Of a stretch of 64,000 nt of DNA, positions 160 to 32,401 are shown piece by piece. Both the position numbers and the translations under genes were made by a program. The stretch lies in the NCBI RefSeq assembly GCF_001308015.1, contig NZ_LGYH01000003.1, forward strand, positions 1 through 64,000. The letters run 5' to 3'. This stretch comes from Neisseria sp. 83E34 (GTDB lineage: Bacteria > Pseudomonadota > Gammaproteobacteria > Burkholderiales > Neisseriaceae). How positions within the stretch are numbered: position 1 is the first letter of the stretch; each line of letters opens with the position of its first letter. The notes below the pieces were generated by a model. The model saw only the letters and a program-made list of their open reading frames with translations, was not told where the DNA came from and ran no database searches.

Positions 160-310
160 TTTAAGAGTTTCTATATTGAAGATAGCTAATAATGGACGGT
201 GCTGGAATAGGTTTACCATTTCACCTTCTTTAAGAAGACCTTTCCCTTTGCCAAACCCTCCCAAAACCGCTATCCTTTTCCCTTTTTTTCTCAGCTTCAA
301 AACCTTCACT

Positions 311-2599
311 ATGAACATCATTTCCACCATCGCATCAGAATTAAACGCCACTGCCGCCCAAATCCAAGCCGCCGTCGAATTGCTCGACGACGGCGCCACC
401 GTGCCCTTTATCGCCCGCTACCGCAAAGAAGTAACTGGCGGGCTGGACGACACCCAGCTCCGCAATCTCGCCGAGCGTTTGCAATACCTGCGCGAATTGG
501 AAGAGCGCAAACAAACCGTTTTAAAAAGCATCGAAGAACAAGGCAAACTCACGCCCGAACTTCAGACGGCCATCGAAGCAGCCGACAACAAAACCGCGCT
601 CGAAGACCTCTACCTGCCTTACAAACCTAAACGCCGCACCAAAGCCCAAATCGCCCGCGAAAACGGTTTGCAGCCTTTGGCCGACAGCTTATTGCAGAGG
701 CCGTCTGAAAACCCCGAAACCGCCGCCGAAGCCTATCTGAACGAACAAGTGCCCGACACCAAAGCCGCACTCGACGGCGCGCGCGCCATTCTGATGGAAC
801 AGTTCGCCGAAGATGCCGAACTGCTCGGCAACTTGCGCGAAAAACTGTGGAACGAAGCCGAAATCCACGCCCAAGTGGTTGCCGGACAAGAAGAAAGCGG
901 CGAAAAATTCAAAGACTACTTCGACCACCGCGAACCCGTCCGCAACATGCCCAGCCACCGCGCGCTCGCCGTATTGCGTGGCCGCAACGAAGGCGTGCTG
1001 CAAGTCGCCCTCAAATACCAGCCAGACGAAACCCCGATTACCGAGCAGAGCGAATACGAAAAAATCATCGCCAAACATTTCGGCATCGCCGACCAAAACC
1101 GCCCTGCCGACAAATGGTTGCGCGATACCGTGCGCCTCACTTGGCGCGCCAAAATCTTCCTCTCGCTGGAGCTTGAAGCCTTAGGCCGTCTGAAAGAAGC
1201 CGCCGATACCGACGCCATTACCGTGTTCGCCCGCAACCTCAAAGACCTGCTGCTCGCCGCCCCTGCCGGCAGCCTCGCCACCATGGGTCTCGACCCCGGC
1301 TTCCGCACCGGCATCAAAGTTGCCGTGGTGGATGACACTGGCAAACTGCTTGACACCGCCGTTGCCTATTTGCACCAAGAAACCAATGCCTTAGCCATCC
1401 TCGCACGCCTCATCAAACAACACGGCGTGAAACTGATTGCTATCGGCAACGGCACCGCCAGCCGCGAAACCGACAAACTCGCCGGCGAATTAGTCAAAGG
1501 CCTGCCTGAAATGGGGCTGCACAAAATCGTTGTCAGCGAAGCCGGCGCATCCGTTTATTCCGCTTCGGAGCTGGCTGCCAAAGAATTCCCCGAGCTGGAC
1601 GTTTCCCTGCGCGGCGCCGTTTCCATCGCCCGCCGCCTGCAAGACCCGCTGGCCGAATTGGTGAAAATCGACCCCAAATCCATCGGCGTCGGCCAATACC
1701 AGCACGATGTCAACCAAAGCCAACTCGCCAAATCGCTGGATGCCGTGGTGGAAGACTGCGTGAACGCCGTCGGCGTGGACGTGAATACCGCTTCCGCTCC
1801 CTTGCTGGCGCGCATTTCCGGCCTCAACAGCACGCTTGCGCAAAACATCGTCGCCTACCGCGACGAAAACGGCGCATTCGACAGCCGTAAAAAACTCCTC
1901 AAAGTACCGCGCCTCGGCGAAAAAACCTACGAACAGGCCGCCGGCTTCTTGCGCATCAACGGCGGCAAAGAACCGCTGGACGCATCCGCCGTCCATCCCG
2001 AAGCCTACCCCGTCGTCGCCAAAATGCTCGACGACCTGCACATCAAAGCCGCCGACCTCATCGGCAACCGCGAAAAAATCAAACAAATCAAGCCCGCCAG
2101 CTACACCACCGACCAATTCGGCCTGCCCACCATCATGGACATCCTCGCCGAACTCGAAAAACCCGGCCGCGACCCGCGCGGCGAATTCCAAACGGCCACC
2201 TTTGCCGAAGGCATCAACGAAATCAGCGATTTACAAGTCGGCATGATTTTAGAAGGCGTAGTGAGCAACGTCGCCAACTTCGGCGCATTCGTCGACATCG
2301 GCGTACACCAAGACGGCCTCGTCCACATCTCCGCCTTGTCGAATAAATTCGTCCAAGACCCGCGCGAAGTCGTTAAAGCCGGCGATGTCGTTAAAGTAAA
2401 AGTATTAGAAGTTGATGCCGCCCGCAAACGCATCGCCCTCACCATGCGCTTGGATGATGAAGCGGGCAGCGGTTCAGCAAGAAGTGGCAGGCCGTCTGAA
2501 AACAGACGCAATGATAGCGGTAGAAACCAGCGTAACCAGCGCGAGCAGGCTCCGGCCAATTCGGCGATGGCGGATGCGTTTGCGAGGTTGAAGCGGTAA
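311..2599 (+). CDS. tex: Tex family RNA-binding transcription accessory protein
   Basis: Predicted cytoplasmic nucleic-acid-binding protein of 762 residues, the usual Tex length. In order: an N-terminal helical Tex domain (about 1-200), a YqgF/RuvX-like nuclease-fold domain with [10 protein letters not shown] near residue 325, helix-hairpin-helix segments near 490-560, and an S1 RNA-binding domain near 640-715 ([14 protein letters not shown]). A basic, Ser/Asn/Arg-rich tail follows. Family members affect transcription and toxin expression by a poorly defined mechanism. I chose the ATG at 311 because Tex homology begins there; the frame stays open upstream to 176 but that extension is low complexity. 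Four GCCGTCTGAA uptake sequences (561, 698, 1183, 2489) lie inside the gene, unlike the dialect of most of the window. Confidence 0.95.
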
Positions 2600-2656
2600 A
2601 TGCATAAAACAATAGCCTAGTATTTACTTTAAAAGATTTAAGCAAGGTTCTAACAA

Positions 2657-2804
2657 ATGCAACTTTCACAATTTTTAAAAGACAGTAACTATAAACTTTC
2701 CCAATTTAGCGAAACACACATAGCTTTACTAGAAAGCAGTATTTTTCAAAAAACAGGTAAAAACGGCGATGTTCCCTATACAAAATGCTTGGTACGCAAA
2801 AAAA
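2657..2804 (+). pseudogene. out-of-frame N-terminus of the R-M fusion protein
   Basis: An ATG at 2657 opens a frame encoding about 48 residues that end ...PYTKCLVRKK. At the A7 tract 2798-2804 this frame passes into nonsense (stop by 2884). Removing one A would join it directly to EIKLTPEEAVRQLYL of the downstream methylase, which reads as a continuous HsdR_N-type start and gives a protein of about 661 residues. It is therefore most likely the authentic amino terminus, currently shifted out of frame. It could be a fixed mutation, a slippage switch or a base error. Confidence 0.75.
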
Positions 2805-4643
2805 GAAATCAAGCTCACCCCCGAAGAGGCTGTGCGCCAACTGTATCTGCTCAAGCTGCATCAGGATTACGGCTATCCCTATGAGCGCATGGAATTGGAA
2901 TACTCCGTTGTGTTCGGACGTGAGAAGAAACGTGCCGACATCGTGATTTTCGACCGCGACAATCCCAATACCGTTTATGTGATTGTCGAATTGAAAAAGC
3001 CCAAACTTAAAGACGGCAAAGAGCAGCTCAAATCTTATTGCAATGCCACAGGTGCGCCCATCGGCGTATGGACAAACGGCGACAGCATCTCCTATTACAA
3101 CCGTCGCGACCCCAATTATTTCAAAGATATTCCTGATATTCCCAAAGCGAGTGAAAAACTTTCCGACATATTAAGCGAGCGTTGGACAATCACCACGCTT
3201 ATTGCCAACGACAAAATTGCCAAACAGCGCAAATCACTGAAAGATTTGGTGGTTGAAATGGAAGACGAAGTATTGGCCAATGCAGGTGTAGATGTATTTG
3301 AAGAACTCTTCCAGCTGATTTTTACCAAGCTATATGACGAGATGGAAAGCACGCGCAACCGCAGCCGCCATCTCGAGTTCCGCAACTACGGCGATACCGA
3401 AAGCGAGCTTAAAGCAAAAATACAAGCGCTTTTTGACCGCGCCAAAGCCAAATGGGAAGGCGTATTTTCCGAAAGTGCCAAAATCAACCTTTCCCCTTCG
3501 CATTTGGCGATTTGCGTTTCATCATTAGAAGAAGTCAAGCTGTTTAACTCCAATCTCGATGTGGTGGACGAAGCGTTTGAATACCTGATCAACAAATCCA
3601 GCAAAGGCGAAAAAGGGCAATACTTTACACCACGTTATGTGATTGATATGTGTGTGAAAATGCTTGATCCCAAAGCACACGAAACCGTTATAGATACCGC
3701 AGCAGGCAGCTGCGGTTTTCCGGTGCACGCCATTTTTCATGTTTGGGAAAAACAACTTAAAGAAAAAGGCTTAAACCGCAGCCATCTGTTTACTGCTGAA
3801 GAAAAGCTGCCCGAACAAACCGATTATGTAGAAGAAAAAGTACTCGCCATTGATTTTGATGAAAAAGCGGTGCGCGTGGCTCGCACGCTTAATCTGATTG
3901 CGGGCGACGGTCAAACCAACGTTTTGTATTTGAACACGCTGGATTACGAACGCTGGGAAGACTCCACCAAAGAAGAAAGCTGGGCAGATGTATACGGTAA
4001 TGGCTGGAAAAAACTGCGTAAGCTCCGCAAAACCAAAGAGCAAAACCGCGATTTCCAGTTTGACATATTGATGGCAAACCCGCCTTTTGCCGGTGAAATT
4101 AAAGAAACCCGCATCATTTCCCGTTACGAACTGGGCAAAAAGCCCAACGGCAAATACCAAAGCAAAGTCGGGCGCGATATTCTGTTTATCGAACGCAATC
4201 TGGATTTTCTCAAAGACGGCGGGCGTATGGCGGTGGTATTGCCACAAGGCCGTTTCAACAACTCCAGCGACAAATACATCCGCGATTTTATCGCCGAACG
4301 CTGCCGCATTCTGGCGGTAGTCGGCCTGCACGGTAATGTGTTCAAACCGCATACCGGCACCAAAACCAGTGTATTGTTTGTACAGAAATGGCATGACGAA
4401 CTTTGCCCAAAAGTAGATGATTACCCGATTTTCTTTGCCACCATGCAGCAATCCAGCAAAGACAACAGCGGCGACAAAATCTATGTAAAGCATTCAGACG
4501 GCCTGCCCGTATTGGACGAACACGGGCATTTAATCGTGAAGCACGATTTGTTTAATCATGACGGTATGACACAAGACGGCATTGCCGAAGCCTTTATCGA
4601 ATTTGCCAAAAAAGAGGGCTTGTCGTTTGTGGGAAAGAATTAA
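2769..4643 (+). CDS. restriction-modification fusion: HsdR_N-like nuclease plus N6-adenine methylase
   Basis: As read, 624 residues from the ATG at 2769. The N-terminal part has a PD-(D/E)xK-like nuclease core with D57 and E74-L-K76 (in VIVELKKPK). The methylase part has SAM motif I DTAAGSCGF at 309-317 and catalytic NPPF at 437-440, as in HsdM-type N6-adenine methylases. Nuclease and methylase in one chain, with specificity in a separate gene, recalls the BcgI (Type IIB) design; no HsdR helicase gene is nearby. The annotated start is a fallback: the true N-terminus seems to lie at 2657 and is frameshifted at an A7 tract. hsdS follows within 30 bases. Whether the shortened protein works cannot be told from sequence. 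Confidence 0.85.
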   Translation: MFPIQNAWYAKKEIKLTPEEAVRQLYLLKLHQDYGYPYERMELEYSVVFGREKKRADIVIFDRDNPNTVYVIVELKKPKLKDGKEQLKSYCNATGAPIGVWTNGDSISYYNRRDPNYFKDIPDIPKASEKLSDILSERWTITTLIANDKIAKQRKSLKDLVVEMEDEVLANAGVDVFEELFQLIFTKLYDEMESTRNRSRHLEFRNYGDTESELKAKIQALFDRAKAKWEGVFSESAKINLSPSHLAICVSSLEEVKLFNSNLDVVDEAFEYLINKSSKGEKGQYFTPRYVIDMCVKMLDPKAHETVIDTAAGSCGFPVHAIFHVWEKQLKEKGLNRSHLFTAEEKLPEQTDYVEEKVLAIDFDEKAVRVARTLNLIAGDGQTNVLYLNTLDYERWEDSTKEESWADVYGNGWKKLRKLRKTKEQNRDFQFDILMANPPFAGEIKETRIISRYELGKKPNGKYQSKVGRDILFIERNLDFLKDGGRMAVVLPQGRFNNSSDKYIRDFIAERCRILAVVGLHGNVFKPHTGTKTSVLFVQKWHDELCPKVDDYPIFFATMQQSSKDNSGDKIYVKHSDGLPVLDEHGHLIVKHDLFNHDGMTQDGIAEAFIEFAKKEGLSFVGKN

Positions 4644-4672
4644 GCCCTTTTGACGAAGCCAAATATCAGGCT

Positions 4673-6073
4673 TTGTTGGAAGGGCTGGAAGTGAGAGAGA
4701 TAAAATTATCAGTAGTAAATGAAAATAAAGATTACCGTATTGATACAGATTTCTGGACGAAAGAACCTAAAAAAAACCCTAACTTGCAATATATAAAAAT
4801 CAAAGATTGTCTTTTAAAATCACAATATGGAATTTCAGTATCCATGAATGAAGATGGAATTGGTTATCCAATTTATAGAATGAATGAGATTCACAATATG
4901 ATGTGTGATTTTTCTGTGTCTAAGTATGCAGATATTTCAGAAATAGAAAAGAAAAAATTTATTTTAAAAGATAGGGATGTTTTATTTAATAGAACAAACT
5001 CATTTGAATGGGTTGGTAGGACAGGAATTTTTTATGAGCAAGAGGGAGTGGATTTTATTTTTGCCTCATATTTAGTGCGATTTGTACCGAATGAAGACAT
5101 TATCTTGCCTGAATATTTGACTACCTATTTGAATACTAAATATGGTATTTGGGATTTAAAAAGAAGAGCAAGGCAATCTATCAATCAAACGAATATTAAT
5201 CCTGAAGAGGTAAAAGAAACTTTTATACCATTGTTAAATAAGAATATTCAATTAAAAATTAAAGAATGTTTTGATTCTTCTAAACAAACACTAATTCAGT
5301 CTTCTCAGTTATATGCCGAAGCGGAAGAATTATTACTGGAAAATCTAGGCCTAAAAAACTTTCAAGTAGCCTGCAATCCTTTCAATATCAAATCCTTAAA
5401 GGAGAGTTTTTTACAAACAGGCAGACTGGACGCAGAATTTTACCAAGTGGTTTACGAACGGCTGGAAGAACATATCAGACAGTATCCGCAAGGTTTTCAG
5501 CGTTTGGGTGAGATATGCCGTCTGAAAGACCAAAACTATACGCCGGAAGATGATCAAGAATACAGCTATATCGAATTATCCAATATCGGACATACGGGAG
5601 AGATTACCGGCTGCATCCAATCTTTAGGTAAAGATTTACCGTCCCGTGCAAGACGGAAAATACAAACCGGTGATGTGGTTGTTTCCAGCATTGAAGGTTC
5701 ATTGCAAAGCTGCGCGGTTGTCACGCCCGAATACCACAATGCATTGTGCTCTACAGGGTTTTATGTAGTGTCATCAGAACATATAAATTCTGAAACGCTG
5801 TTGGTATTGTTTAAATCACCACTGATTCAGCAGATTTTAAAGAAAAACTGTTCAGGCACGATTTTAACCGCCATCAATAAGAAAGAGTTTTTAAATATAC
5901 CGTTGCCCGTAATTTGCCCTAAAACACAAACCCAAATCGCAGAATACCTGCAAAAAAGCCAAGCCTTGCGCCGTCAGGCAGCGGAACTGCTCGCAGAGGC
6001 AAAAAACAGCGTAGAGCATGAAATTGAAAATATTCAATTAAATCAAATAAATGCGGGGGGGGGTAAATCATAA
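4673..6073 (+). CDS. hsdS: specificity subunit with two target-recognition domains
   Basis: Predicted DNA-specificity subunit of 466 residues for the upstream methylase-nuclease. Recognition domain 1 covers about 1-190, a helical conserved region follows (AEAEELLLENLGLKNF), then SGRLDAE-type sequence LQTGRLDAEFY opens domain 2, and a second helix ends ...VEHEIENI. The frame is open upstream through FDEAKYQALLEG without an ATG or GTG; the TTG at 4673 is the best start and is uncertain. The gene ends in a G9 tract (6055-6063) that puts the next hsdS segment out of frame. Recognition domain 1 is AT-rich compared with its neighbours, which fits domain exchange. Confidence 0.85.
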   Translation: MLEGLEVREIKLSVVNENKDYRIDTDFWTKEPKKNPNLQYIKIKDCLLKSQYGISVSMNEDGIGYPIYRMNEIHNMMCDFSVSKYADISEIEKKKFILKDRDVLFNRTNSFEWVGRTGIFYEQEGVDFIFASYLVRFVPNEDIILPEYLTTYLNTKYGIWDLKRRARQSINQTNINPEEVKETFIPLLNKNIQLKIKECFDSSKQTLIQSSQLYAEAEELLLENLGLKNFQVACNPFNIKSLKESFLQTGRLDAEFYQVVYERLEEHIRQYPQGFQRLGEICRLKDQNYTPEDDQEYSYIELSNIGHTGEITGCIQSLGKDLPSRARRKIQTGDVVVSSIEGSLQSCAVVTPEYHNALCSTGFYVVSSEHINSETLLVLFKSPLIQQILKKNCSGTILTAINKKEFLNIPLPVICPKTQTQIAEYLQKSQALRRQAAELLAEAKNSVEHEIENIQLNQINAGGGKS

Positions 6074-6827
6074 TATTATCAAAGACTTATTGGATAAAGC
6101 CGCATACTGGGCAAAATTGGCTGAATGGATATTACTGGAAAACCTGTTTTTCAGACGGCCTGAGAATATTTCTGTGCAACTGTTCAGTCAATCTTTCGGT
6201 AGCAGCGGACGTTTGGATGCTGAATATTACCAACCCAAGTTTGACCGACTGCTTACCCATATCCGCAAACAAAAATACGCCCGCTTGGGAGATTTGGTCG
6301 ATTTATCTAAATCGGTTGAGCCGGGTTCTGAGGCTTACCGTGATGAAGGCATACCGTTTGTGCGTGTGGCGGATTTATCTGAATTTGGTATTGCCCCGAC
6401 AGATAAATTTTTAAGCCCGGAAAATTTTCATGATGTTATCCGCCCCAAAAAAGACACCTTATTGTTAAGCAAAGACGGTACGGTCGGCATCGCTTATCGT
6501 GTGCCGCAGAATATGAATGTGATTACTTCGGGCGCAATTGTGCATCTGAATATTAAACCACAATATCGCGAAACCCTGCTGCCCGATTATCTGGCTTTGG
6601 TATTAAATTCGCCCGCAGTTCGTTTACAGGCAGAACGCGATGCGGGCGGCTCGATTATTCAGCATTGGAAGCCGTCTGAAATAAAAGAAGTTTTAATTCC
6701 TATATTGCCTTTATCCATGCAGAAAGATATCAGTGATAAAGTGCAGTATAGTTTTATGCTGAAAAAACAAAGTGAAAACTTGTTGGAAGAAACCAAAAAA
6801 CGGGTAGAGCAAGAAATTGAAAATTAA
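6051..6827 (+). CDS. hsdS: third specificity half-subunit, switchable partner of hsdS1
   Basis: 258 residues starting at an ATG that overlaps the G9 tract. After a short helix (WILLENLF) it repeats the conserved linker GSSGRLDAEYYQPKFDRL, carries a single recognition domain (RLGDLVDLSK to GGSIIQHWKPSEIK) and a C-terminal helix ending VEQEIEN. It is therefore half of a normal HsdS. Read with hsdS1 after loss of one G it would add a third recognition domain, an unusual architecture. Alone it could act as a homodimerising half subunit or be silent. No clear ribosome-binding site precedes the ATG. Confidence 0.8.
   Translation: MRGGVNHNIIKDLLDKAAYWAKLAEWILLENLFFRRPENISVQLFSQSFGSSGRLDAEYYQPKFDRLLTHIRKQKYARLGDLVDLSKSVEPGSEAYRDEGIPFVRVADLSEFGIAPTDKFLSPENFHDVIRPKKDTLLLSKDGTVGIAYRVPQNMNVITSGAIVHLNIKPQYRETLLPDYLALVLNSPAVRLQAERDAGGSIIQHWKPSEIKEVLIPILPLSMQKDISDKVQYSFMLKKQSENLLEETKKRVEQEIEN
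6055..6063 (+). repeat. G9 homopolymer at the hsdS1/hsdS2 junction
   Basis: Nine consecutive G. With nine, hsdS1 stops at 6073 and hsdS2 needs its own ATG at 6051. With eight (or eleven) the frames join as ...NAGGVNHNIIKD..., giving one protein of about 717 residues. A poly-G tract splitting hsdS is known to phase-vary in the gonococcal NgoAV system, and this one is placed the same way. Confidence 0.85.
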
Positions 6828-6879: not shown

Positions 6880-7680
6880 ATGGCCAACACCCCCTTATTC
6901 TCTACACCACACAAGACGGCCTATCTCAATTCGTTTTGCGCGAATTAGGCGGACAGCTTTGGTTAACACAGTTGGAAATAGCCGAGCTGTATCAAACCAC
7001 CGTTTCCAATATCAATAAGCATATCAAAGCGATATTGGCTGAAAAAGAAATGGAGGAACGGGCAACTATTGAGTATTACTCAATAGTTCAAACCGAAGGC
7101 GGGCGGCAGGTAAGCCGCGAAATCGCCCATTATTCCCTGCCGATGATTATCGCCGTCGGCTACCGTGTGCGCTCTTCACGCGGTACGCAGTTCCGCCAAT
7201 GGGCAACACGCACTTTGGGAGAGTACCTGCAAAAAGGCTTTGTATTGGATGACGAACGTCTGAAAAACCCGCCGGTTGGCACAATCCCTGCGCCGGATTA
7301 TTTTGATGAGTTGCTGGAACGCATCCGTGATATCCGCGCTAGCGAAAAGCGGGTCTATTTACGTGTGCGAGAGATTTTTGCGCTGGCTGCGGATTATCAG
7401 CCCAGCTTTAAAGAAACTACTCAATTTTTTAAAATCATTAGATCAGGCACAGCGTAAAAAGCAGGTATTTCTAAAAAATTAGGCGGAAAAGCTGGATCAA
7501 TTTTTAGCATTTAACGACCGTGAAGTGCGGTAAGGAGCAGGTAAAATCAGCAAAAAACAGGTCGATATCAAAGCAGAAGCCGAATACGAACGCTATATGG
7601 CTGTACAGCGTCAAATCAAAGAGCAGCAGGGTGAGGGCGACATCGCCGAATTATTGCGCCTGCAAGCTAAAAAGTGTGAA
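6880..7680 (+). pseudogene. rhuM: decayed rhuM-like gene
   Basis: RhuM-family remnant; such genes are often passengers of Type I R-M loci and have no settled function. ATG 6880 starts MANTP, but a C5 tract (6890-6894) throws it out of frame. One more C would continue LILYTTQDGLSQFVL into the long open segment 6936-7457 (WLTQLEIAELYQTT, YRVRSSRGTQFRQWATR, DYFDELLERIRDIRASEKR). After FFKII near 7440 roughly the last third is lost, and the tail resumes in another frame (DQAQRKKQVFLKN, KLDQFLAFNDREV, QRQIKEQQGEGDIAELL) with in-frame stops near 7480 and 7530. At least one frameshift, one internal deletion and two stops make it inactive. Confidence 0.85.
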
Positions 7681-7749
7681 GGCCGCAAAAAACTTAAAGT
7701 TTGTTATGGCGTTGTTGCTTTGTGTCGGGGATTAAGTGGTTTAATCATA

Positions 7750-7782
7750 AATGCCTGTCTGAAAAAGTTTCAGACAGGCATT
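7750..7782. terminator. inverted DUS pair between rhuM remnant and iclR
   Basis: 15-bp arms made of TGCCTGTCTGAAA and its complement with a 3-base loop. It is the first TG-dialect uptake sequence in the window, and probably terminates the convergent units on both sides. Confidence 0.8.
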
Positions 7783-7794
7783 GTAGTTTTCAAA

Positions 7795-8595
7795 CTAAGC
7801 AGATTTAGGTTCTTGAAACAAAAGTTTACTGATTTCTTCCGAGGCCGCTTTCATGTCGGGAACGAAAGCGAGCAGGTCGTCGAGGCTTTTGCGGATGGTG
7901 GGGGCGTGGGTGTATAGGGCGGCGATGAATTGGCCGTCTGCATCGAGCACGGGTACGGAGCAGCCGACCATGCCGGAAATGAATTCTTCATCGTCAAAGC
8001 CGATGCCGGTTTTGCCGATTTTTTTTATGGCTTGTTCTAAAGCTTTGGGGTCGGTGAGGGTGTTTTGTGTCATGCGGGTGGGTTGCATGTGTTCGATCAG
8101 CCGTTTGCGTTTTAATGCGGGTAGCGAGCTGAGGTAGAGCTTGCCGCCGGCCGTGCAATACAGCGGTACTTGCGTGCCGCTGGGCAGATAAACTTGTAGC
8201 GGCCAGTTGGTTTGTACGCGGTCGGTATAAGACATGCAGTTGCCGTTGGGCACGCTGATGCCGCAGGTTTCGCCGATTTTGGCGGAAAGCGTACCTAAAA
8301 TTGCTATCCGTTCCGCTTGATGGTGTTTGCTTTGCCAGATGTTGACGCTCAGTCTTAGTGAGCGGATGCCCGGCACGATTCCGCCTTGTAAATCGGTTTG
8401 GATGAATTGCTCGTTTTCCAGCAGTTTGAGCAGGCGGTGTAGGCTGGGTTTGGGGATGTCCAAATCTTGAATCAAATCTTGCGGAGTGGGTGGGCGGTCT
8501 GCGGCGGCCACTGCTTCGATAATTTCTAAAACCCGCGTGATGGATGAACCTCTGCCGGAAGATATATCCAATTTTCTTTCCTTTTGCATGATCAT
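7795..8595 (-). CDS. IclR family transcriptional regulator
   Basis: 266 residues. A winged helix-turn-helix lies at about 15-75 (SSITRVLEIIEAVAAADRP, LHRLLKLLENEQFI), followed by the IclR ligand domain (GNCMSYTDRVQTNWPLQV, GFDDEEFISGMVGCSVPVLD). It is transcribed away from the permease-dehydrogenase operon starting at 8890, the usual arrangement for a local regulator of a catabolic operon. The likely effector is the transported hydroxy acid or a product of it (inference). The start could be the ATG at 8595 or the second ATG at 8589. Confidence 0.9.
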   Translation of the reverse strand: MIMQKERKLDISSGRGSSITRVLEIIEAVAAADRPPTPQDLIQDLDIPKPSLHRLLKLLENEQFIQTDLQGGIVPGIRSLRLSVNIWQSKHHQAERIAILGTLSAKIGETCGISVPNGNCMSYTDRVQTNWPLQVYLPSGTQVPLYCTAGGKLYLSSLPALKRKRLIEHMQPTRMTQNTLTDPKALEQAIKKIGKTGIGFDDEEFISGMVGCSVPVLDADGQFIAALYTHAPTIRKSLDDLLAFVPDMKAASEEISKLLFQEPKSA

Positions 8596-8735
8596 TAAAG
8601 ATAAGCTGTTGTGAAATAAGCTGATTTATGAATCTGAAATGCTCAAAATCAATTATATATAACTTATTCTGATTGTAAACATTAGAAATTATGATTTTAT
8701 CCTAACCTTTGTCATTCATATAATCGGCTAAAACG

Positions 8736-8753
8736 ATACAATTTGTTTCAAAT
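8736..8753 (+). promoter_or_regulatory. candidate operator in the iclR-gntP intergenic region
   Basis: ATACAATTTGTTTCAAAT is found again with one mismatch, on the opposite strand, upstream of mmsB (14607-14624). Each copy reads toward the gene it precedes. It lies in the 294-bp gap between iclR and the permease gene. IclR binding is inferred. Confidence 0.5.
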
Positions 8754-8889
8754 TAATAAAATTATATTGAAAAGTAGTGAGTGAATTTCGCGACAACAAA
8801 ACAAATTAAGAATAAGCCGGCTGCCTATAAACGGAAAAGCTACTGATAAAGCCGGCCCGACAAATGGCAAATGGAAGGAGAAACCGATT

Positions 8890-10281
8890 ATGTTGAGTTT
8901 GACAGGCATTGTGCTTTCACTGGTACTTTTGATGATTTTGGCATATAGAGGTATCAGTGTTTTGATTTTGGCCCCTTTGCTGGCGATGTTGGCGGTGTTG
9001 TTCAGTGCGCCCTCCAATGAGCTTTTGGGTACATACACACAAGTGTTTATGCAGGGGATGGGTGGATTTGCGATTAAGTTTTTCCCGATTTTTCTGTTGG
9101 GCGCGATTTTCGGCAAATTGATGGAGGATTCCGGCGCGGCGCACAGTATTGCCCATGCTTTGGTGGATAAATTGGGCAAGCAGAAAGCTTTGCTGTCGAT
9201 TGTGTTGGCTTCGGCTATTTTGACCTACGGCGGGGTGTCGGTGTTTGTAGTGACTTTTGCCGTGTATCCGATTGCAGCGGCGTTGTTCCGCGAGATTGAT
9301 ATTCCCAAACGTTTGATTCCCGGCGCTATTTCAGTGGGTGCGCTCACGTTTACCATGACCGCCATGCCGGGCACGCCTTCTATTCAGAATGCGATTCCGA
9401 TTCCTTATTTTCAAACCGATGCGTTTGCATCTCCGGGCTTGGGTGTGATTGCCGGAGTGGTTATGTTTATTTTCGGCATGATGTGGCTTAACCGCCGCCT
9501 CAAGCATGCGGCAGCGGCTGGCGAGGGCTATGGCAAGCATTACGATAGCCATGTGAAAGAGCAGGATTTCAAACATTTGCCGGGTTTGGCCAAGGCGCTG
9601 GTTCCGATTATTGTGGTGATTGCGTTGAACTACGCGTTAACCAAGTTTATCTTCCCCATGATGGACACGGCTTATTTGGCTGAGAAAAAATTCGGCGGCG
9701 TTTCCCTCAATTCGGTGGTCGGCTTGTGGGCGATTATCGCGGCTTTGGTGGCGGGATGTGTGTTTCTGATTTTTGCCAACATGAAATATTGGCGCAATTT
9801 GAAAAAGTCGCTAAATGACGGTGCGATGGGCTCATTACTGCCGATTTTCAACACGGCATCTGAAGTGGGCTACGGCTCGGTAATTGCCACTTTGGCGGGC
9901 TTTATCATCCTGCGTGATTTTATGGTTGGGCTTTCGCCGGATAATCCTTTGATTTCCGAAGCGATTGTCGTGAATGTGATGGCGGGTATTACCGGCTCGG
10001 CTTCCGGCGGTATGAGTATTGCACTCAGCGCGATGGGCGAAACCTATGTGCAGATGGCCAACCAAACCGGCACCTCGCTCGAGCTGATGCACCGTGTGGC
10101 ATCGATTGCATCGGGTGGTTTGGACGCGCTGCCGCACAACGGCGCCGTGATTACCATGCTGGCGATTTGCGGCTTAACGCATAGGGAATCTTATTTGGAT
10201 ATTTTGGTGGTTGCCGTGATTGTGCCGTTGATTGCTTTGGCTGCCGTGGTCGGGCTGGGTACTGTGTTCGGTTCGTTTTAA
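8890..10281 (+). CDS. GntP family permease
   Basis: Inner-membrane transporter of 463 residues with about 12 hydrophobic segments. It resembles the GntP family (gluconate, idonate and 3-hydroxybutyrate permeases): LGAIFGKLMEDSGAA early, conserved LTYGGVSVFVVTFAVYP in the middle, and ASGGLDALPHNGAVITML near the C-terminus. A good GGAG site lies just before the ATG. It is first gene of an operon with an iron alcohol dehydrogenase and mmsA, so the cargo is probably a short hydroxy acid such as 3-hydroxypropionate or 3-hydroxyisobutyrate (inference). The stop codon overlaps an uptake sequence at 10281. Confidence 0.88.
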   Translation: MLSLTGIVLSLVLLMILAYRGISVLILAPLLAMLAVLFSAPSNELLGTYTQVFMQGMGGFAIKFFPIFLLGAIFGKLMEDSGAAHSIAHALVDKLGKQKALLSIVLASAILTYGGVSVFVVTFAVYPIAAALFREIDIPKRLIPGAISVGALTFTMTAMPGTPSIQNAIPIPYFQTDAFASPGLGVIAGVVMFIFGMMWLNRRLKHAAAAGEGYGKHYDSHVKEQDFKHLPGLAKALVPIIVVIALNYALTKFIFPMMDTAYLAEKKFGGVSLNSVVGLWAIIAALVAGCVFLIFANMKYWRNLKKSLNDGAMGSLLPIFNTASEVGYGSVIATLAGFIILRDFMVGLSPDNPLISEAIVVNVMAGITGSASGGMSIALSAMGETYVQMANQTGTSLELMHRVASIASGGLDALPHNGAVITMLAICGLTHRESYLDILVVAVIVPLIALAAVVGLGTVFGSF

Positions 10282-10321
10282 TGCCTGTCTGAAAAAAGAC
10301 GGAAGATAAATAGGAGGAATT

Positions 10322-11479
10322 ATGTCCGCACAAGTTGTATTACCCCGTTTTATGCACATCGGTAGGCATGCCTGCGAAAAGCTGCCGGAGTTGGTAAAAA
10401 CTTTAGGCTGCAGCAAGCCTTTGATTGTAACCGACAAAATGATGGTTCAGCTCGGCTATGTGCAGCAGGTTTGCGATATTTTGAACTCAGACGGCCTCAA
10501 AGCCGATATTTATGACGATACCGTGCCTGAGCCTACCGATTCTTCGATTGAAGCGGGCGTGGAAAAGGTGAAAAACGGCAATTACGACATCATTATCGCT
10601 TTAGGCGGCGGCAGCCCGATAGACAGCGCCAAAGCCATTGCCGTGTTGGGCAAGTTCGGCGGCAATATACGCGAATACAAATTTCCACGCCAAGTGAACG
10701 AACACGGCATGCCGTTGATTGCCGTGCCCACCACGGCGGGCACAGGTTCCGAGTGTACGCGCTTTACCATCATCACGGATGAAGCCACCAGCGAAAAACT
10801 GTTATGCGTCGGTTTGGGATTTATGCCCACGGCGGCAGTGATTGATTACGAGCTGACCGTGAGCGTGCCGCAGCGCACCACTGCCGACACGGGCATCGAC
10901 GCGCTCACCCATGCCATCGAAGCTTATGTGAGTAAAAAGGCCAATCCGTATAGCGATGCGCAGGCTTTGGCGGCCATGAAGCTGATCGGCGGCAATTTGC
11001 GCAAGGTGTATCACAACGGCAGCGACCTTGCCGCGCGCGAAGCCATGATGCTGGGTTCGACTCTGGCGGGCATTGCGTTTTCCAATGCATCGGTTGCGCT
11101 GGTGCACGGCATGAGCAGGCCGATAGGCGCGTTTTTCCACGTGCCGCACGGTTTGTCCAACGCCATGCTGCTGCCTGCCGTTACCGCCTATTCCGTGCCA
11201 GCCGCGCCGGAACGCTATGCCGAATGCGCCCGCACGGCGGGATTCGCCTCGCATGACGAAGACACGGATACGGCCAACCGGAAGCTGCTTGAAGGATTGG
11301 TTGCTTTAAACCGGGAATTGAATGTGCCCACTTTGGCGCAATTCGGTGTGGAAAAAGCCGAATTCGACAAAGTGGTGGAAACCATGGCTGAGCAGGCTTT
11401 GGCTTCCGGTTCGCCTGGCAATAATCCGCGCGTACCCGAAAAAGAAGAGATTATCGCCATCTACCGCCAGCTGTGGTAG
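10322..11479 (+). CDS. iron-containing alcohol dehydrogenase
   Basis: 385-residue Group III (Fe-dependent) alcohol dehydrogenase. GGGSPIDSAKA at 95-105 is the NAD-binding signature, and the metal ligands are visible as D193, H197, H262 and H276. An AGGAG site precedes the ATG by a few bases. It sits 40 bases after the permease and 70 before mmsA, so it probably oxidises the imported hydroxy acid to the semialdehyde that MmsA uses. The exact substrate is not determinable from sequence. Confidence 0.88.
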   Translation: MSAQVVLPRFMHIGRHACEKLPELVKTLGCSKPLIVTDKMMVQLGYVQQVCDILNSDGLKADIYDDTVPEPTDSSIEAGVEKVKNGNYDIIIALGGGSPIDSAKAIAVLGKFGGNIREYKFPRQVNEHGMPLIAVPTTAGTGSECTRFTIITDEATSEKLLCVGLGFMPTAAVIDYELTVSVPQRTTADTGIDALTHAIEAYVSKKANPYSDAQALAAMKLIGGNLRKVYHNGSDLAAREAMMLGSTLAGIAFSNASVALVHGMSRPIGAFFHVPHGLSNAMLLPAVTAYSVPAAPERYAECARTAGFASHDEDTDTANRKLLEGLVALNRELNVPTLAQFGVEKAEFDKVVETMAEQALASGSPGNNPRVPEKEEIIAIYRQLW

Positions 11480-11549
11480 TCGGCAGGCCTCTATTTTTAT
11501 GAATTGAAACGGTATGGATATGCCGAAACTTTAAACCAGGAGAAACAAC

Positions 11550-13049
11550 ATGAGCCAAATCGTCGGTCATTTCATCAATGGAAAAATCATTGAAGACAAA
11601 GCGCGCACACAAGATGTGTACAACCCTTCCACCGGAGAGGTGAGCAAACAGGTGTCGCTGGCTTCCAAAGCCACAGTTGAGGAAGCCATTGCAGCCGCAC
11701 AAGCCGCGTTCCCCGCATGGCGGCAAACACCGGTTATGAAGCGCGCACGCATTATGTTCAAATACAAAGAGTTGCTGGAGCAAAACCGCGACAAAATCTG
11801 CGAACTTATCGGATCGGAACACGGCAAAATTTCGCATGATGCGGCGGGCGAATTGCAGCGCGGCATTGAGAATGTGGAATATGCCTGCGGTGCGCCTGAA
11901 TTTTTGAAAGGCGACTTCAGCAAAAATGTGGGCCCCGATATCGATTCGTGGTGCGATTTCCAGCCTTTGGGCGTGGTGGCGGGCATTACCCCGTTCAACT
12001 TCCCGGCCATGGTGCCTTTGTGGATGTTCCCGCTGGCGATTGTGTGCGGCAATACTTTCGTGTTGAAGCCTTCTGAACGTGATCCGAGCGTGGGCCTCTT
12101 TTTGGCGCAGCTGTTGCAGCAGGCAGGTTTGCCTGACGGCGTGTTGAATGTGGTAAACGGCGATAAAGAAGCCGTGGATACGCTGTTGACCGACGAGCGT
12201 GTTCAGGCTGTCAGCTTTGTGGGTTCCACGCCGATTGCCAAATATATTTACAGCACCGCCACCGCTCACAGCAAACGTTGCCAGGCATTAGGCGGCGCGA
12301 AAAACCATGCCATCGTGATGCCGGATGCGGATTTGGACAACGTAGTGAATTCACTGCTTGGTGCCGCATTTGGTTCGTCGGGCGAACGCTGTATGGCCTT
12401 GTCGGTAGCCGTGGCGGTGGGCGACGAAATTGCCGACCGCATGGTAGCGGGCATCAAAGAAGGCATGAAAAACATGAAAGTCGGCCCGTTTTCCGATGCC
12501 AGCAACCATTTCGGCCCGTTGATTACCGCCGCACACAAAGCAAAAGTGGAAGGCTATATCGCCAGCGCGGCTGAGCAGGGCGCAACCATTGTGGTGGACG
12601 GGCGCAACCCGTCCGTGCCGGGTTATGAAAACGGCTTCTATCTGGGTGGCACGCTGATTGACCACGTTACTCCCGAAATGACCAGCTATCAGGAAGAAAT
12701 CTTCGGCCCGGTGCTGCAAGTGGTGCGTGTGAAAACCATGCAGGAAGCGATGGACTTGATCAACAAACATATCTACGGCAACGGCACCTGCATCTACACC
12801 CGTGACGGTGAAGCGGCCCGTTACTTTGCCGACAATATTTTGGTAGGCATGGTCGGCATCAATATTCCGTTGCCCGTGCCGGTGGCCTATCACAGCTTCG
12901 GCGGCTGGAAACAATCCAGCTTCGGCGATTTAGGCGCTTACGGCCGCGACGGCGCGCGTTTCTACACCCGCAGAAAAACCATCACCCAACGCTGGCCGAC
13001 TTCGGAAGTACGGGAAGGCGCGGTATTCTCGATGCCGACGCTGGGTTAA
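11550..13049 (+). CDS. mmsA: CoA-acylating methylmalonate-semialdehyde dehydrogenase
   Basis: 499 residues, full length. Aldehyde-dehydrogenase fold with an NAD site (ITPFNFPAMVPLWMFP near 146-161), FVGSTPIAKYI, and the catalytic cysteine C281 in SSGERCMALS. The R-rich, CoA-type signature and length fit the MMSDH subgroup, which converts methylmalonate or malonate semialdehyde to propionyl- or acetyl-CoA plus CO2. A clear AGGAG lies upstream (11540 region). It is the last gene of the gntP-adh-mmsA operon, with an inverted uptake-sequence terminator right after it. Confidence 0.93.
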   Translation: MSQIVGHFINGKIIEDKARTQDVYNPSTGEVSKQVSLASKATVEEAIAAAQAAFPAWRQTPVMKRARIMFKYKELLEQNRDKICELIGSEHGKISHDAAGELQRGIENVEYACGAPEFLKGDFSKNVGPDIDSWCDFQPLGVVAGITPFNFPAMVPLWMFPLAIVCGNTFVLKPSERDPSVGLFLAQLLQQAGLPDGVLNVVNGDKEAVDTLLTDERVQAVSFVGSTPIAKYIYSTATAHSKRCQALGGAKNHAIVMPDADLDNVVNSLLGAAFGSSGERCMALSVAVAVGDEIADRMVAGIKEGMKNMKVGPFSDASNHFGPLITAAHKAKVEGYIASAAEQGATIVVDGRNPSVPGYENGFYLGGTLIDHVTPEMTSYQEEIFGPVLQVVRVKTMQEAMDLINKHIYGNGTCIYTRDGEAARYFADNILVGMVGINIPLPVPVAYHSFGGWKQSSFGDLGAYGRDGARFYTRRKTITQRWPTSEVREGAVFSMPTLG

Positions 13050-13074
13050 AATCAAGACTTAAACTGATTTGAAT

Positions 13075-13108
13075 ATGCCTGTCTGAAATTTGTTTTTCAG
13101 ACAGGCAT
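13075..13108. terminator. inverted DUS pair after mmsA
   Basis: Arms ATGCCTGTCTGAAA and complement with a loop of about 6 bases and T-rich sequence after it. It closes the gntP-adh-mmsA operon. Confidence 0.8.
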
Positions 13109-13120
13109 TTTTGTTATGCA

Positions 13121-13149
13121 GTCATACTTGGGTCTGACCCGAGTATGAC
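13121..13149. repeat. dispersed palindrome, copy 1
   Basis: GTCATACTTGGGT and ACCCGAGTATGAC form a 13-bp stem with a single mismatch. Related copies lie at 15342, 21113 and (degenerate) 61358. Confidence 0.75.
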
Positions 13150-13220
13150 GAAACTGCTATTGAATAATTGGTTTAGCTATATACCCCCTCTTAAGCTTAC
13201 TTCGTTTCCTATTGTTGAAG

Positions 13221-13419
13221 GTTGCGCTTTATGGCCGCGCGGCCACTTACTTTCTTTGCTTCGCCAAAGAAAGTAAGCAAAGAAAGGCGACCGCGGTTGC
13301 CGGTTTGCTGCGCAAACTGCCCTCACTGCGCGGAATTTTCGGGGCGGCCGCTAGTCGCTTCGCTCCGGGAGCGGCCTTGTTTCCCCGAAAATCCCGCTCC
13401 GTTCGGCGGCGCCAGCGGG
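13221..13419 (+). repeat. 199-bp dispersed repeat, left copy
   Basis: Matches the reverse complement of 17119-17317 at all but one of 199 positions (T instead of C at 13230). It contains several internal dyads: GGCCGCGCGGCC, a TACTTTCTTTG stem-loop, GCGGCCGC, and GGGATTTTCGGGG-type arms. It has open frames in several phases but no start signals, so it is not taken as a gene. The rest of 13050-13640 holds the terminators listed and otherwise AT-rich sequence without a gene. Confidence 0.9.
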
Positions 13420-13583
13420 AGGAATGGTTGCAGCATAGATTTCGAATGGCTTAAGTTTACGATTTTTAATTTGGTTTAGATGTGGTTACGATTGTACGAT
13501 TAGAGGGGTGTCGCAATCGTACGCATAGCTTTTTATCGTCATATTCGCTTGAATTGACGATAGAGTAGCTCTGCCGCAACACA

Positions 13584-13616
13584 ATGCCTGTCTGAAACCT
13601 ATTTTCAGACAGGCAT
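13584..13616. terminator. inverted DUS pair after mmsB
   Basis: ATGCCTGTCTGAAA arms with a 5-base loop, 25 bases downstream of the mmsB stop. Confidence 0.8.
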
Positions 13617-13640
13617 TCATTATGATTGATAACCCTTAAA

Positions 13641-14552
13641 TCATTTCACCAAACCTTGTTCGTACAAATCAATAATGGCGGAAAAGTCCAGATTGCCTTC
13701 GTGGGTTTCGACAAAGCGGTTGTATTGCGCCAGCGCCTGTTCGCCCATCGGCGTGTCGCTGCCGCAGGATTCGGCCAGCGAGCGGGCGAGGTTTAGGTCT
13801 TTCAGCATCAAGGCGGCCATGAAGCCGTTTTGATAGCCGCGGCTGGCAGGCGCGTTTTCCATCACGCCGGGATAAGGGTTGTACACATTCAGCACCCAGT
13901 TGCCGCCGGAGCTTTTCGACATAATGTCCGACAACACTTGCGCGTCCAAGCCGTTTTTCACACCCAGCGCGATGGCTTCGGATGTGCCGGCCATTAAAAT
14001 GCCGAGCAGCATATTGTTGCAAATTTTGGCTACCTGCCCCGCGCCGTGGCCGCCTGCGTGGAAAATATTTTTGCCCATGGCTTCAAGCACGGGTTTGGCG
14101 CGCTCGAAATCATCGGCACTGCCGCCCACAATAAAGCTTAAGGTGCCGGCTGCCGCGCCCGCCGTTCCTCCGGACACAGGCGCATCAAGGAAAGCAATAT
14201 CGAATTTGGCGGCCGCCTCTGCCAGTTCGCGCGCATCGGTGGCGGCAATGGTGCTGCAATCAATTACCATGCTGCCTGGGGCCAATTGGCGGAACAGCCC
14301 GTTATCCTGTTCGCCCAGATACACATTGCGCACATGCGCGCCTGCCGGCAACATGCTGATAACCAGCTGCGTGTTTTGCGGCAATTCAGACAGGCTGTCT
14401 ATTTGGTTTGCACCTTGGGCAACCAGATTGGCAACCGCATCTTTGTTTAGATCGAACACGGTTACGTCAAATCCTTTTTTCACCAGATTGGCCGCCATTG
14501 GTGCGCCCATATTGCCCAAGCCGATAAATGCGATTTTGTTTTTTTCCGACAT
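13641..14552 (-). CDS. mmsB: 3-hydroxyisobutyrate dehydrogenase
   Basis: 303-residue beta-hydroxyacid dehydrogenase. Rossmann motif FIGLGNMGAPMAANL at 10-24, substrate motif DAPVSGGTAGAAAGTL near 124-139, and the catalytic lysine region GAGQVAKICNNMLLG near 170. It oxidises 3-hydroxyisobutyrate to methylmalonate semialdehyde, the MmsA substrate. It is convergent with the gntP-adh-mmsA operon but has a matching 18-base candidate operator upstream, suggesting shared control. AGGAG precedes the ATG. Confidence 0.92.
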   Translation of the reverse strand: MSEKNKIAFIGLGNMGAPMAANLVKKGFDVTVFDLNKDAVANLVAQGANQIDSLSELPQNTQLVISMLPAGAHVRNVYLGEQDNGLFRQLAPGSMVIDCSTIAATDARELAEAAAKFDIAFLDAPVSGGTAGAAAGTLSFIVGGSADDFERAKPVLEAMGKNIFHAGGHGAGQVAKICNNMLLGILMAGTSEAIALGVKNGLDAQVLSDIMSKSSGGNWVLNVYNPYPGVMENAPASRGYQNGFMAALMLKDLNLARSLAESCGSDTPMGEQALAQYNRFVETHEGNLDFSAIIDLYEQGLVK

Positions 14553-14606
14553 GGTTTTCTCCTTTGTTTAGAAATTTTGCCACTTTAAACATAGCAAATT
14601 TCTGCT

Positions 14607-14624
14607 ATTTGATACAAATTGTAT
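14607..14624 (-). promoter_or_regulatory. candidate operator upstream of mmsB
   Basis: On the minus strand it reads ATACAATTTGTATCAAAT, 17 of 18 bases identical to the element at 8736. The core is close to a perfect dyad. It lies 55-72 bases upstream of the mmsB start. Confidence 0.5.
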
Positions 14625-14720
14625 TATTTTATGCTTTTCATCATGGGAAATGATGGGGTTGGAATTTAAGAGGTTTATTGTTTATAGTTAAGCCCTTTTG
14701 AGCATGCCTGTCTGAAAACC

Positions 14721-15320
14721 ATGAACGAACATCTTTTAATCGAAACGCATCCGTTGCCGCCTTTTGCGCCTGCCAACGCCAAACTCTTGATGCTCGGCTC
14801 GTTCCCGCCGCCGCGTGCGCGCTGGAAGATGGATTTTTATTATCCGAACTTTCAAAACGATATGTGGCGGATTTTCGGTTTGGTGTTTTTCGGCGATAAA
14901 GATTATTTTGTCGAAGCAGGCGGGAAAGCATTTAAAGAGGAGCTGCTGCGTGCATTTCTAACGGAAAAAGGCATTGCCATCAGCGACACGGCGCATCGGG
15001 TGCGGCGTTTGCAGGGCAATGCTTCGGATAAGTTTTTAGAAATTGTGGAGCCGGTGGATTTGCGGGGCTTGCTGGCCGGAATACCGTTGTGCCAAACCAT
15101 TATGACCACGGGCGACAAAGCAACGGATACCTTGCTTTCTTTGATGCCGCCCGATACCGACAAGCCGAAAATCGGCGGGTTTGCCGAGGCGGTGTTTTCA
15201 GACAGGCATTTGCGTTTATACCGCTTGCCGTCATCGTCGCGGGCGTATCCGTTGGCTTTGGAGAAGAAGGCCGAGGTTTACGGGCGGTTTTTTGGGGAAA
15301 TCGGTTTGTTGTATAGTTAA
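14721..15320 (+). CDS. uracil-DNA glycosylase superfamily protein
   Basis: 199 residues. An N-terminal LLMLGSFPPPRARWKMDF followed by YYPNFQNDMWRIFG matches the UDG-fold group annotated as DNA-deoxyinosine or hypoxanthine glycosylases. SSSRAYPLALEKK near the C-terminus takes the place of the usual C-terminal motif. It would remove deaminated bases from DNA. An uptake sequence sits directly before the ATG and a second one (15197-15208) lies inside the gene. It stands alone between mmsB and speE. Confidence 0.78.
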   Translation: MNEHLLIETHPLPPFAPANAKLLMLGSFPPPRARWKMDFYYPNFQNDMWRIFGLVFFGDKDYFVEAGGKAFKEELLRAFLTEKGIAISDTAHRVRRLQGNASDKFLEIVEPVDLRGLLAGIPLCQTIMTTGDKATDTLLSLMPPDTDKPKIGGFAEAVFSDRHLRLYRLPSSSRAYPLALEKKAEVYGRFFGEIGLLYS

Positions 15321-17118: not shown

Positions 17119-17317
17119 CCCGCTGGCGCCGCCGAACGGAGCGGGATTTTCGGGGAAACAAGGCCGCTCCCGGAGCGAAGCGACTAGCGGCCGCCCCGAA
17201 AATTCCGCGCAGTGAGGGCAGTTTGCGCAGCAAACCGGCAACCGCGGTCGCCTTTCTTTGCTTACTTTCTTTGGCGAAGCAAAGAAAGTAAGTGGCCGCG
17301 CGGCCATGAAGCGCAAC
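17119..17317 (-). repeat. 199-bp dispersed repeat, right copy (inverted)
   Basis: Reverse complement of 13221-13419 with one mismatch. Flanking sequence outside these bounds does not match. The pair brackets mmsB, the glycosylase gene and the speE-like gene, about 3.7 kb. Confidence 0.9.
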
Positions 17318-17390
17318 TGTGGCTGCCGTGAAGCAGATAAGATTTATATCCTCTTTGCATTGAGATTGAAAACACAATCAATACAACAAG

Positions 17391-21356: not shown

Positions 21357-21395
21357 ATGGCTGGTGCATCAGCAAAAAACCTTAAAGGAACCACG

Positions 21396-22316: not shown

Positions 22317-22326
22317 GGAGCGCGAG

Positions 22327-22785
22327 ATGGATAAGAAACAATACAGCGTAGAAGCCATTCAGACAGGCACGGTGATCGACCACATCCCGGCAGGCAAAGG
22401 CTTGACGATTCTGCGCCAATTCAAGCTGCTGCATTACGGCAGCGCCGTAACCGTGGGCTTTAATCTGCCGAGCAAAACGCAGGGCTGCAAAGACATCGTG
22501 AAAATTTCCGGCGTGCATTTCGACGAACAAACCGCCAACCGCCTGGCCTTATTCGCCCCGGAAGCCACGGTCAACGTGATTGAAGATTTCAAAGTAGTGC
22601 AAAAAATGCAGCTGCGCCTGCCCGAAACCATCAGCGAAGTGTTCCATTGCCCCAATCTGAACTGCGCCAGCCGCGAAGAGCCGGTAAAAAGCCGCTTTTA
22701 TGTGAACACGCAAGGCGGCCAAACTAAGCTGAAATGCCATTATTGCGAAAAAACTTTCCCGCGCGATGTGGTGGTGGAAGCGTAA
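22327..22785 (+). CDS. pyrI: aspartate carbamoyltransferase regulatory subunit
   Basis: 152 residues. Nucleotide-binding N-domain ([15 protein letters not shown]) and a C-terminal zinc domain with four cysteines, CPNLNC and CHYC. It gives allosteric control by CTP/ATP. The ATG at 22327 follows AAGGAG. An uptake sequence lies in frame at 22358-22369, encoding QTG. Confidence 0.96.
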
Positions 22786-27890: not shown

Positions 27891-27963
27891 GTGTGTGCTT
27901 CTCTGGATGATTGGATAAAACGGAGAGATTATAACACTTTGCTCAGGCAAGCATAGGAGCGGG

Positions 27964-32366: not shown

Positions 32367-32381
32367 GCTTCGGTATCGTTT

Positions 32382-32401
32382 AAAGGGGCATCTGCCCCTT
32401 T
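32382..32401 (+). terminator. hairpin between rpsB and tsf
   Basis: AAAGGGGCA pairs with TGCCCCTTT with a 2-base loop, then T-rich sequence. Likely a partial terminator within the operon. A slightly altered DUS pair (GGCCTGTCTGAA with TTCAGACGAGC) follows at 32423. Confidence 0.7.

Follow-up and report, generated by a model that had tools for sequence, protein, structure and literature searches.

Why should a genome that uses one dialect of the DNA uptake sequence (DUS) carry two runs of DUS of another dialect, one starting in tex and one inside valS? The genome is that of Neisseria sp. 83E34 (G000; 2.42 Mb in 40 contigs), and the window, by which we mean the whole stretch of 64,000 bases analyzed, comprises bases 1-64000 of contig C23, counted from the contig's first base. 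DUS dialects have been called efficient barriers in the Neisseriaceae, as tested in four species other than the present ones (PMC3630211); the same source reports the TG-wadDUS for N. wadsworthii 9715, places the AG-DUS in commensals, among them N. subflava and N. elongata, and gives the AT-DUS as the meningococcal and gonococcal form. Comparison of the window with ten relatives (one genome per species) shows that tex and valS have been exchanged between species of different DUS dialect. The AG-DUS patches at these genes are very probably the product of repeated homologous recombination between a trio of TG-wadDUS species (G000, G006 and G040) and a quartet of AG-DUS species (G041, G002, G045 and G027), most simply by natural transformation.

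The main DUS of the genome is the TG-wadDUS, TGCCTGTCTGAA, with 2119 exact copies (reversed control, 0) as compared to 263 of the AG-DUS, AGGCCGTCTGAA. In the window, a dialect could be assigned to 74 of the 85 GTCTGAA cores (the 11 in other contexts were dropped), of which 64 are of the host GCCT type and 10 of the GCC type. Along the window these fall in the order one host-type, eight GCC-type, 24 host-type, two GCC-type and 39 host-type, and none of 200,000 label shuffles gave so few dialect runs, so the clustering is not due to chance. The first-pass annotation had located eight GCCGTCTGAA cores between 561 and 6680 and two more in valS, and all ten were recovered (12-mer starts at 561-, 698+, 1183+, 2489+, 4493-, 5515+, 6150- and 6669+, and at 24798- and 24934+), as was its estimate of about 55 host copies (55 exact TGCCTGTCTGAA). 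Its statement that the host motif is absent before 7751 holds for exact copies, which begin with an inverted pair at 7752-7780 in the motif scan, but not for near-host forms: AGCCTGTCTGAA, which differs from the TG-wadDUS at a single base, lies left of tex at 116-127 on the minus strand, so a host-like dialect is already present there. Its assignment of the foreign dialect to the meningococcal and gonococcal type was mistaken. Six of the ten GCC-type motifs are AG-DUS, two are TGGCC forms, one is AT and one AA; thus the AG-DUS prevails, and the sites in tex and valS are common to AG-DUS species.

The tex block (229-2599, plus strand; ATG at 311, with a leader of about 80 bp) is 93.6-94.8% identical in DNA to the four AG species, and its homology to G006 and the quartet runs from 229-245, that is 65-81 bp 5' of the ATG, to near the stop codon. 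Likewise, valS (23454-26279, minus strand) is 93.5-94.7% identical to the four AG species against a background of 80-86%. Among all seven species, identity is 93.6-96.4% for tex and 93.1-98.1% for valS. In three control segments (21390-22760, 29232-30296 and 31600-33340), the trio is 80-86% identical to the quartet and 90-98% within itself; a fourth (27114-27900; 82-86%) has homologs from two quartet members only and was left out of the trees. At the edges of both genes, the identity profile shifts sharply above background to the other group. Since the window's tex differs as usual (83-85% DNA identity) from the more distant species G011, G012 and G029, it is not simply a slowly evolving gene. 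The trio forms a clade with 100% bootstrap support in all three control trees, but its monophyly is rejected by the approximately unbiased (AU) test for tex (p 0.0028) and valS (p 1.3e-6), where all seven species form one clade with 100% bootstrap support. That seven-species clade is rejected in two of the three controls (p 0.00265 and 0.000333; third control, p 0.064). Identity and trees therefore indicate that both genes were exchanged across the dialect barrier, and the conflict of both gene trees with the control trees bears out the first-pass annotation in so far as it had tex exchanged with another dialect group and had suspected an exchange at valS.

The exchanged genes hold their DUS at the same sites as the AG species. 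In tex, the TGGCCGTCTGAA motif at 561-572 (minus strand) is common to trio and quartet, and the 10-mer of the AG-DUS at 698-709 (plus) is conserved across both; the AG-DUS at 1183-1194 and 2489-2500 (both plus) are common to the trio and all six AG species compared (including G011 and G012), while the TG species G029 has none at the former and AGACCGTCTGAA, one base off, at the latter. In valS, TGGCCGTCTGAA at 24798-24809 (minus) is common to the seven species plus G011 and G012, and the 10-mer of the AG-DUS at 24934-24945 (plus) is conserved in the trio, G041, G045 and G027 and is one base off in G002. Across the window's first 34 kb plus a second island in the dcw cluster (below), every one of the 23 GCC-type DUS that could be aligned falls within DNA whose identity to the AG quartet is 88% or more. 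The corresponding fraction of host-type DUS is 6 of 25 without G041 and 16 of 33 with it; both counts are given because G041 itself imported part of the region. The difference in identity is significant by the Mann-Whitney test (p 2e-6 with G041 left out, 7e-6 with it in), but the GCC-type sites stem from three blocks and these p values thus overstate independence. The six host-type exceptions comprise one outside the exchanged genes (14710), one in valS (25339) and four within the dcw island or on its border (7767, 12966, 14912 and 16146). These counts support the view that dialect marks exchanged tracts.

The same pattern recurs elsewhere in the genome. On contig C12, about 6.4-16.1 kb of the dcw stretch (L192), whose mur genes are named from Pfam domains and the usual gene order, is mostly 89-96% identical to the quartet, with gaps and patches down to 68% and flanks of 64-86%, and its AG-DUS sites are common with the quartet, as in tex. 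An island on contig C1 (L178) matches G027 and G045 at 88-91% identity, with flanks mostly at 71-85% and partial matches in G041 and G002. These two islands were searched against the ten relatives, and the dcw island alone was profiled for identity; the others are described only, and all were chosen for holding foreign-dialect sites, so they illustrate the pattern rather than estimate its frequency. In such stretches runs of one dialect are visible inside the other, and some islands are mixed (L179, L193). Genome-wide, GGCCGTCTGAA occurs 307 times (reversed control, 2). Its clustering was computed on contig C1, which lies fully within the first 100 of the 307 positions: 34 sites form eight islands (5-kb gap), and 20 close neighbors were counted among 29 merged sites as compared to 4.1 expected and a maximum of 12 in 20,000 draws. 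The even spread of the foreign motif that would speak against import was thus not seen on this contig. Two further observations concern other contigs: Type VI secretion genes lie where DUS are of the GCC type only (L185; contig C6, 1-20000), and short contigs (L187 and L188 on C9 and C10, L189 on C11) carry repeating mixtures of AG- and TG-DUS, with RHS proteins on C11.

Exchange runs both ways. Immediately right of the window's tex region, a TG-dialect block (7440-15165, unstranded; iclR, a GntP-like permease, an iron-containing alcohol dehydrogenase and onward) has a homolog in the AG species G041, where it sits beside an AG-type tex, carries TG-DUS at like places and is mostly 96-99% identical to G006. 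Identity between G041 and G006 drops to 64% in the bin starting at window position 15165; the left edge, near a deletion in rhuM, is not sharp. Thus the simple one-way import proposed in the first-pass annotation is not supported: the tex and valS alleles are common to seven species non-monophyletically, and the adjoining block went from a TG-type source to an AG species. A second AG/TG pair, G011 and G028, shares a 7,886-bp iclR-permease-alcohol dehydrogenase block at 98.6% identity (L160:2129-10014, L161:2405-10289) and three parts of dcw at 95-98%, while five other dcw pieces, like seven pieces taken at five further pairs of loci, have identities of 71-88%. Judged from its sequence, this block is a second cross-dialect exchange, of the same kind of block as that between G041 and G006. 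We also observed an inverted repeat of about 200 bp (window 13204-13418 and 17120-17318), of which G006 and G040 hold many similar copies, up to 98% identical.

Motif counts over 46 genomes of the genus suggest that more has flowed from AG to TG species than in reverse, with the reservation that such figures count motifs and not transfers. Five genomes use the TG-wadDUS (G000, 2119 copies; G006, 2095; G040, 2100; G028, 1920; G029, 1322), and the next highest has 78. AG-DUS number 263, 327, 272 and 235 in G000, G006, G040 and G028 and 23 in G029, which is 11.0, 13.5, 11.5, 10.9 and 1.7%, respectively, of all exact copies of the two 12-mers. Conversely, the AG quartet holds 27 (G002), 31 (G041), 34 (G027) and 37 (G045) TG-DUS, or 1.0-1.3%; G012 has 52, G008 63 and G011 78, and the other 34 genomes have at most seven.

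What lies immediately 3' of tex differs in each of the nine genomes read (the window and eight relatives; L151 and L153-L159). In the window, a predicted restriction-methylase fusion (HSDR_N_2 and N6_Mtase Pfam domains; 2769-4643, plus strand) carries an AG-DUS at 4493 (minus strand) and is followed by a specificity subunit in two parts, both on the plus strand: the first (4673-6073) has ATGCCGTCTGAA at 5515, and the second (6051-6827) has an AG-DUS at 6150 (minus strand) and AAGCCGTCTGAA at 6669. The specificity frame is split at a run of nine G residues (6055-6063, plus strand, read directly), a layout as in phase-variable hsdS genes. Among solved structures the methylase part (residues 175-543) is nearest RM.BsaXI. 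In BcgI/BsaXI-like restriction-modification systems, a nuclease-like N-terminus is fused to an N6-methylase and specificity is encoded by a gene of its own. By its domains, the window's putative system has this arrangement; it differs in the frame split at the (G)9 tract and in that the best PADLOC model is a type I methylase. The corresponding slot holds a type IIG-like enzyme in G006, two open reading frames (ORFs) without Pfam match in G040, a SIR2-domain protein matching PADLOC PDC-S25 in G041, SoFic in G002, an AbiL-like pair in G027, a methylase and specificity gene in G012 (Pfam only), MoxR and vWA ORFs in G045 (the PADLOC scan covered MoxR only, with no match), and an integrase-core ORF in G011 (Pfam only). 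With defense-type genes in six of the nine genomes, the 3' side of tex is likely a defense hot spot. The gene that borders the slot on the right varies among the nine: RhuM comes next in G006, G040 and G012, G041 has part of it (Pfam), and G027 shows DNA homology only. The window's own rhuM (6936-7457, plus strand; PADLOC candidate PDC-S05) encodes 173 aa as compared to 310-345 in G006, G040 and G012, being about 200 bp shorter than its relatives at 7439/7440.

The slot bears on the proposal that tex, the restriction genes and rhuM arrived jointly from one AG donor. The unbroken series of eight GCC-type DUS between 561 and 6680 is what such a single import would leave, but G006 and G040 carry the exchanged tex with other cassettes, and the cassette itself mixes three DUS forms (AG, AT, AG and AA in order). 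Because tex is common to the trio and the fusion has no match exceeding 33% protein identity in the other 45 genomes, the two look like separate events. At E 1e-20 or better, the only matches to the fusion among the 46 genomes are in G000 itself and G007 (33% protein identity), which gives no donor, and none of these genomes is an AG species in which this same cassette adjoins a tex that shares 98% or more identity with that of the window. The window's rhuM is closest to the TG species G040 (90%; G006, 80%; G027, 78%; G012, 76%; a 136-bp piece of G041, 93%), so it lends no support to AG import of rhuM. We therefore consider a single 7.7-kb import unlikely and retain from the first-pass annotation the exchange of tex with another dialect group; an AG-like origin of the cassette, whose DUS sites have no homologous counterparts to compare, may be suggested by its DUS.

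Transfer by an integrative conjugative element (ICE) or phage instead of transformation is very unlikely. DUS-dialect islands have revealed ICEs in Neisseria (PMC7371117), and one island of this genome, at 425-445 kb of contig C1, has a G+C content of 43% and a zeta-toxin-like gene. On the other hand, tex, valS and the mur genes are allelic replacements of core genes, and a Pfam search of the nine window ORFs at 1-11.5 kb found no integrase or conjugation domain.

We give still less credence to the idea that the TG dialect arose from an AG- or AT-like ancestor and that the AG-DUS are left-overs awaiting turnover. The wadDUS has been described as an AT-DUS with an inserted T (PMC3630211), and the AG-DUS of tex lie at sites common to all six AG species, with G029 one base off at 2489. 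Relics should be scattered at background divergence; instead, the foreign motifs are clustered and every alignable GCC-type site counted in the window's first 34 kb and the dcw island falls in a high-identity tract, and the TG species G029 has just 23 AG-DUS in total.

An assembly chimera or contamination by an AG-DUS Neisseria is highly improbable. The draft has 40 contigs, tex lies at a contig end, and contig C6, examined over 20 of its 24.9 kb, shows GCC-type DUS only. On the other hand, the exchanges at tex, valS and dcw recur with identical DUS positions in the independent genomes G006 and G040, on which ground contamination was rejected for these three loci; most islands examined on C1 and C12 have TG-DUS on both flanks, and the listed contamination is 0.05.

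Recombination between the dialect groups is thus our preferred explanation. Alleles of the other dialect replaced stretches of core genes that measure one to several kb (tex, valS and the mur stretch) and retained the DUS of their source group at the same sites. Transformation would be the route, and the DUS type would point to an AG to TG direction for tex and valS. The slot 3' of tex has a different, often anti-phage, cassette in each species read, in the window a restriction-modification fusion with its poly-G-split specificity gene and AG-like motifs, and tex and valS may have hitch-hiked with such neighboring cassettes.

Several observations weigh against this explanation. By site pattern (like G011 and G012 or like G029), counted to read the direction of transfer, the trio's tex has 150 AG-like to 79 TG-like sites, and the same count in the four control segments ranges from 51:110 to 130:81. 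The valS allele holds a host-dialect DUS and is thus not a pure AG allele, and conversely the TG block of G006, G040 and G041 itself contains one AG-DUS. At 2489, G029 has an AG form that is one base off, which would also fit an old AG-like site in the TG lineage. Neither the restriction cassette nor rhuM yields phylogenetic support for an AG origin. With G041 left out, the identity counts omit 4 of the 27 GCC-type and 27 of the 52 host-type DUS, for which no homolog could be aligned. Trees of recombining genes violate the assumption of a tree, each species is represented by a single genome, and tex lies at a contig end. Finally, the DNA uptake receptor ComP of the TG species G028 does not join those of the other TG species; this sequence is partial.

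In the trio, the receptor looks native. A comP gene is present (the family of the G041 protein was checked against solved ComP), the ComP proteins of the trio are 84-89% identical, and they group with that of the TG species G029 at 100/99 support, apart from the AG species; the sequences of G028, G002 and G027 are partial. The hosts thus appear to have kept their native TG-type receptor. Three entry routes remain: weak cross-recognition, DUS-independent uptake, or a host-dialect DUS on the same fragment. In N. meningitidis, transformation suffers when the DUS deviates by one or two bases (PMC3868556), which makes a leak across dialects less expected, and DUS spacing has been linked to the size of conversion fragments in six neisserial genomes (PMC2397512).

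Some alleles carry both dialects. In valS, the two GCC-type sites at 24798 and 24934 stand together with an exact TG-wadDUS (25334-25345, plus strand) in the trio and in the AG species G041, G002 (one base off at 24934) and G027; this TG-DUS is also intact in G029 and is one base off in G045. Similarly, next to shared AG-DUS, a murD-like gene carries a TG-DUS that is present in the trio, in the AG species G041, G002 and G027 and in G029, and is one base off in G045. In addition, we searched the 46 genomes for mixed pairs, defined as an exact TG-wadDUS and an inverted GCCGTCTGAA within 30 bases (reversed control, 0). These occur in 12 genomes, namely G008, G038 and ten of the eleven compared here, and in none of the other 34. 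The TG genomes have eight (G000), six (G006), nine (G040), seven (G028) and none (G029); of the AG genomes, G012 and G027 have four each, G002, G011 and G041 three each, G008 and G045 two each, and G038 one. Ten of 27 mixed-pair clusters are common to both dialects, a count that takes in short loops and loose matches, which may have arisen by chance; firm long loops are identical across dialects between G002 and G006, among G027, G000 and G040, with a variant in G041 and G006, and twice between G011 and G028. Tentatively, such bilingual alleles might bridge the barrier, in that a fragment readable by both ComP types would allow a few genes to be homogenized over seven species in a shared pool against the compared background of 80-86%, but this is doubtful and they could equally be mere traces of exchange. 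The mixed dialect boundary invoked in the first-pass annotation is consistent with these alleles and hairpins; a role for it in uptake would be a proposal drawn from the motifs.

Two neighboring regions differ among species in other ways. Beside valS, a glyoxalase-like gene (22882-23427, minus strand) lies in a stretch (22.85-23.45 kb) with no DNA homolog in the ten relatives searched, and the length of the next ORF varies among most species (the 5' side of valS was compared). The contigs of G000 and G040 both end about 155-310 bp ahead of tex, and this shared stop suggests a repeat at the contig break. The slot may be compared with the minimal mobile element of Neisseria, in which differing cassettes, free of mobility genes, occupy the same conserved flanks across strains. 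In that element, reportedly described by Saunders and Snyder in 2002, recombination in the flanks would move the variable cassettes that sit beside conserved genes. At tex, variable cassettes likewise adjoin a conserved gene, but the gene on the right varies, G011 has an integrase-core ORF and each species is represented by one genome; the slot is defense-type in six of nine genomes and its flank crosses the dialect barrier. A text search of PMC3082526 for tex found no mention of the gene.

Interspecies recombination, dialect patches and dialect mapping are already known in Neisseria (PMC1431543; PMC7371117; PMC3630211). The host TG-wadDUS and foreign AG-DUS motifs are those defined in PMC3630211, but whereas dialects are described there as a barrier, core genes of TG-wadDUS hosts have here crossed dialect groups both ways. 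The use of foreign-dialect DUS to trace donor groups is that of PMC7371117, whose targets are islands and ICEs; ours are gene-sized, tree-tested allelic replacements of core genes. A further parallel is the folP region of N. subflava, a several-kb patch with mucDUS in a species group that mainly uses the AG-DUS (PMC1431543; PMC3630211); the dialects in that case are one base apart, and the genome-wide extent and reverse flow are features of the present one. A literature search confined to open papers found no report of exchange between TG-wadDUS and AG-DUS hosts. New to us are the extent and two-way nature of this core-gene exchange, the finding that two partnerships have exchanged the same loci, and the alleles with two dialects.

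These results indicate that the dialect barrier in Neisseria leaks and that foreign-dialect DUS, where tested, mark core genes that have crossed it. Given this leak, its apparent asymmetry and the alleles that carry both dialects, one can test whether receptor specificity sets the barrier or whether DNA carrying both signals bridges it, and the slot beside tex links this exchange to the turnover of anti-phage systems.

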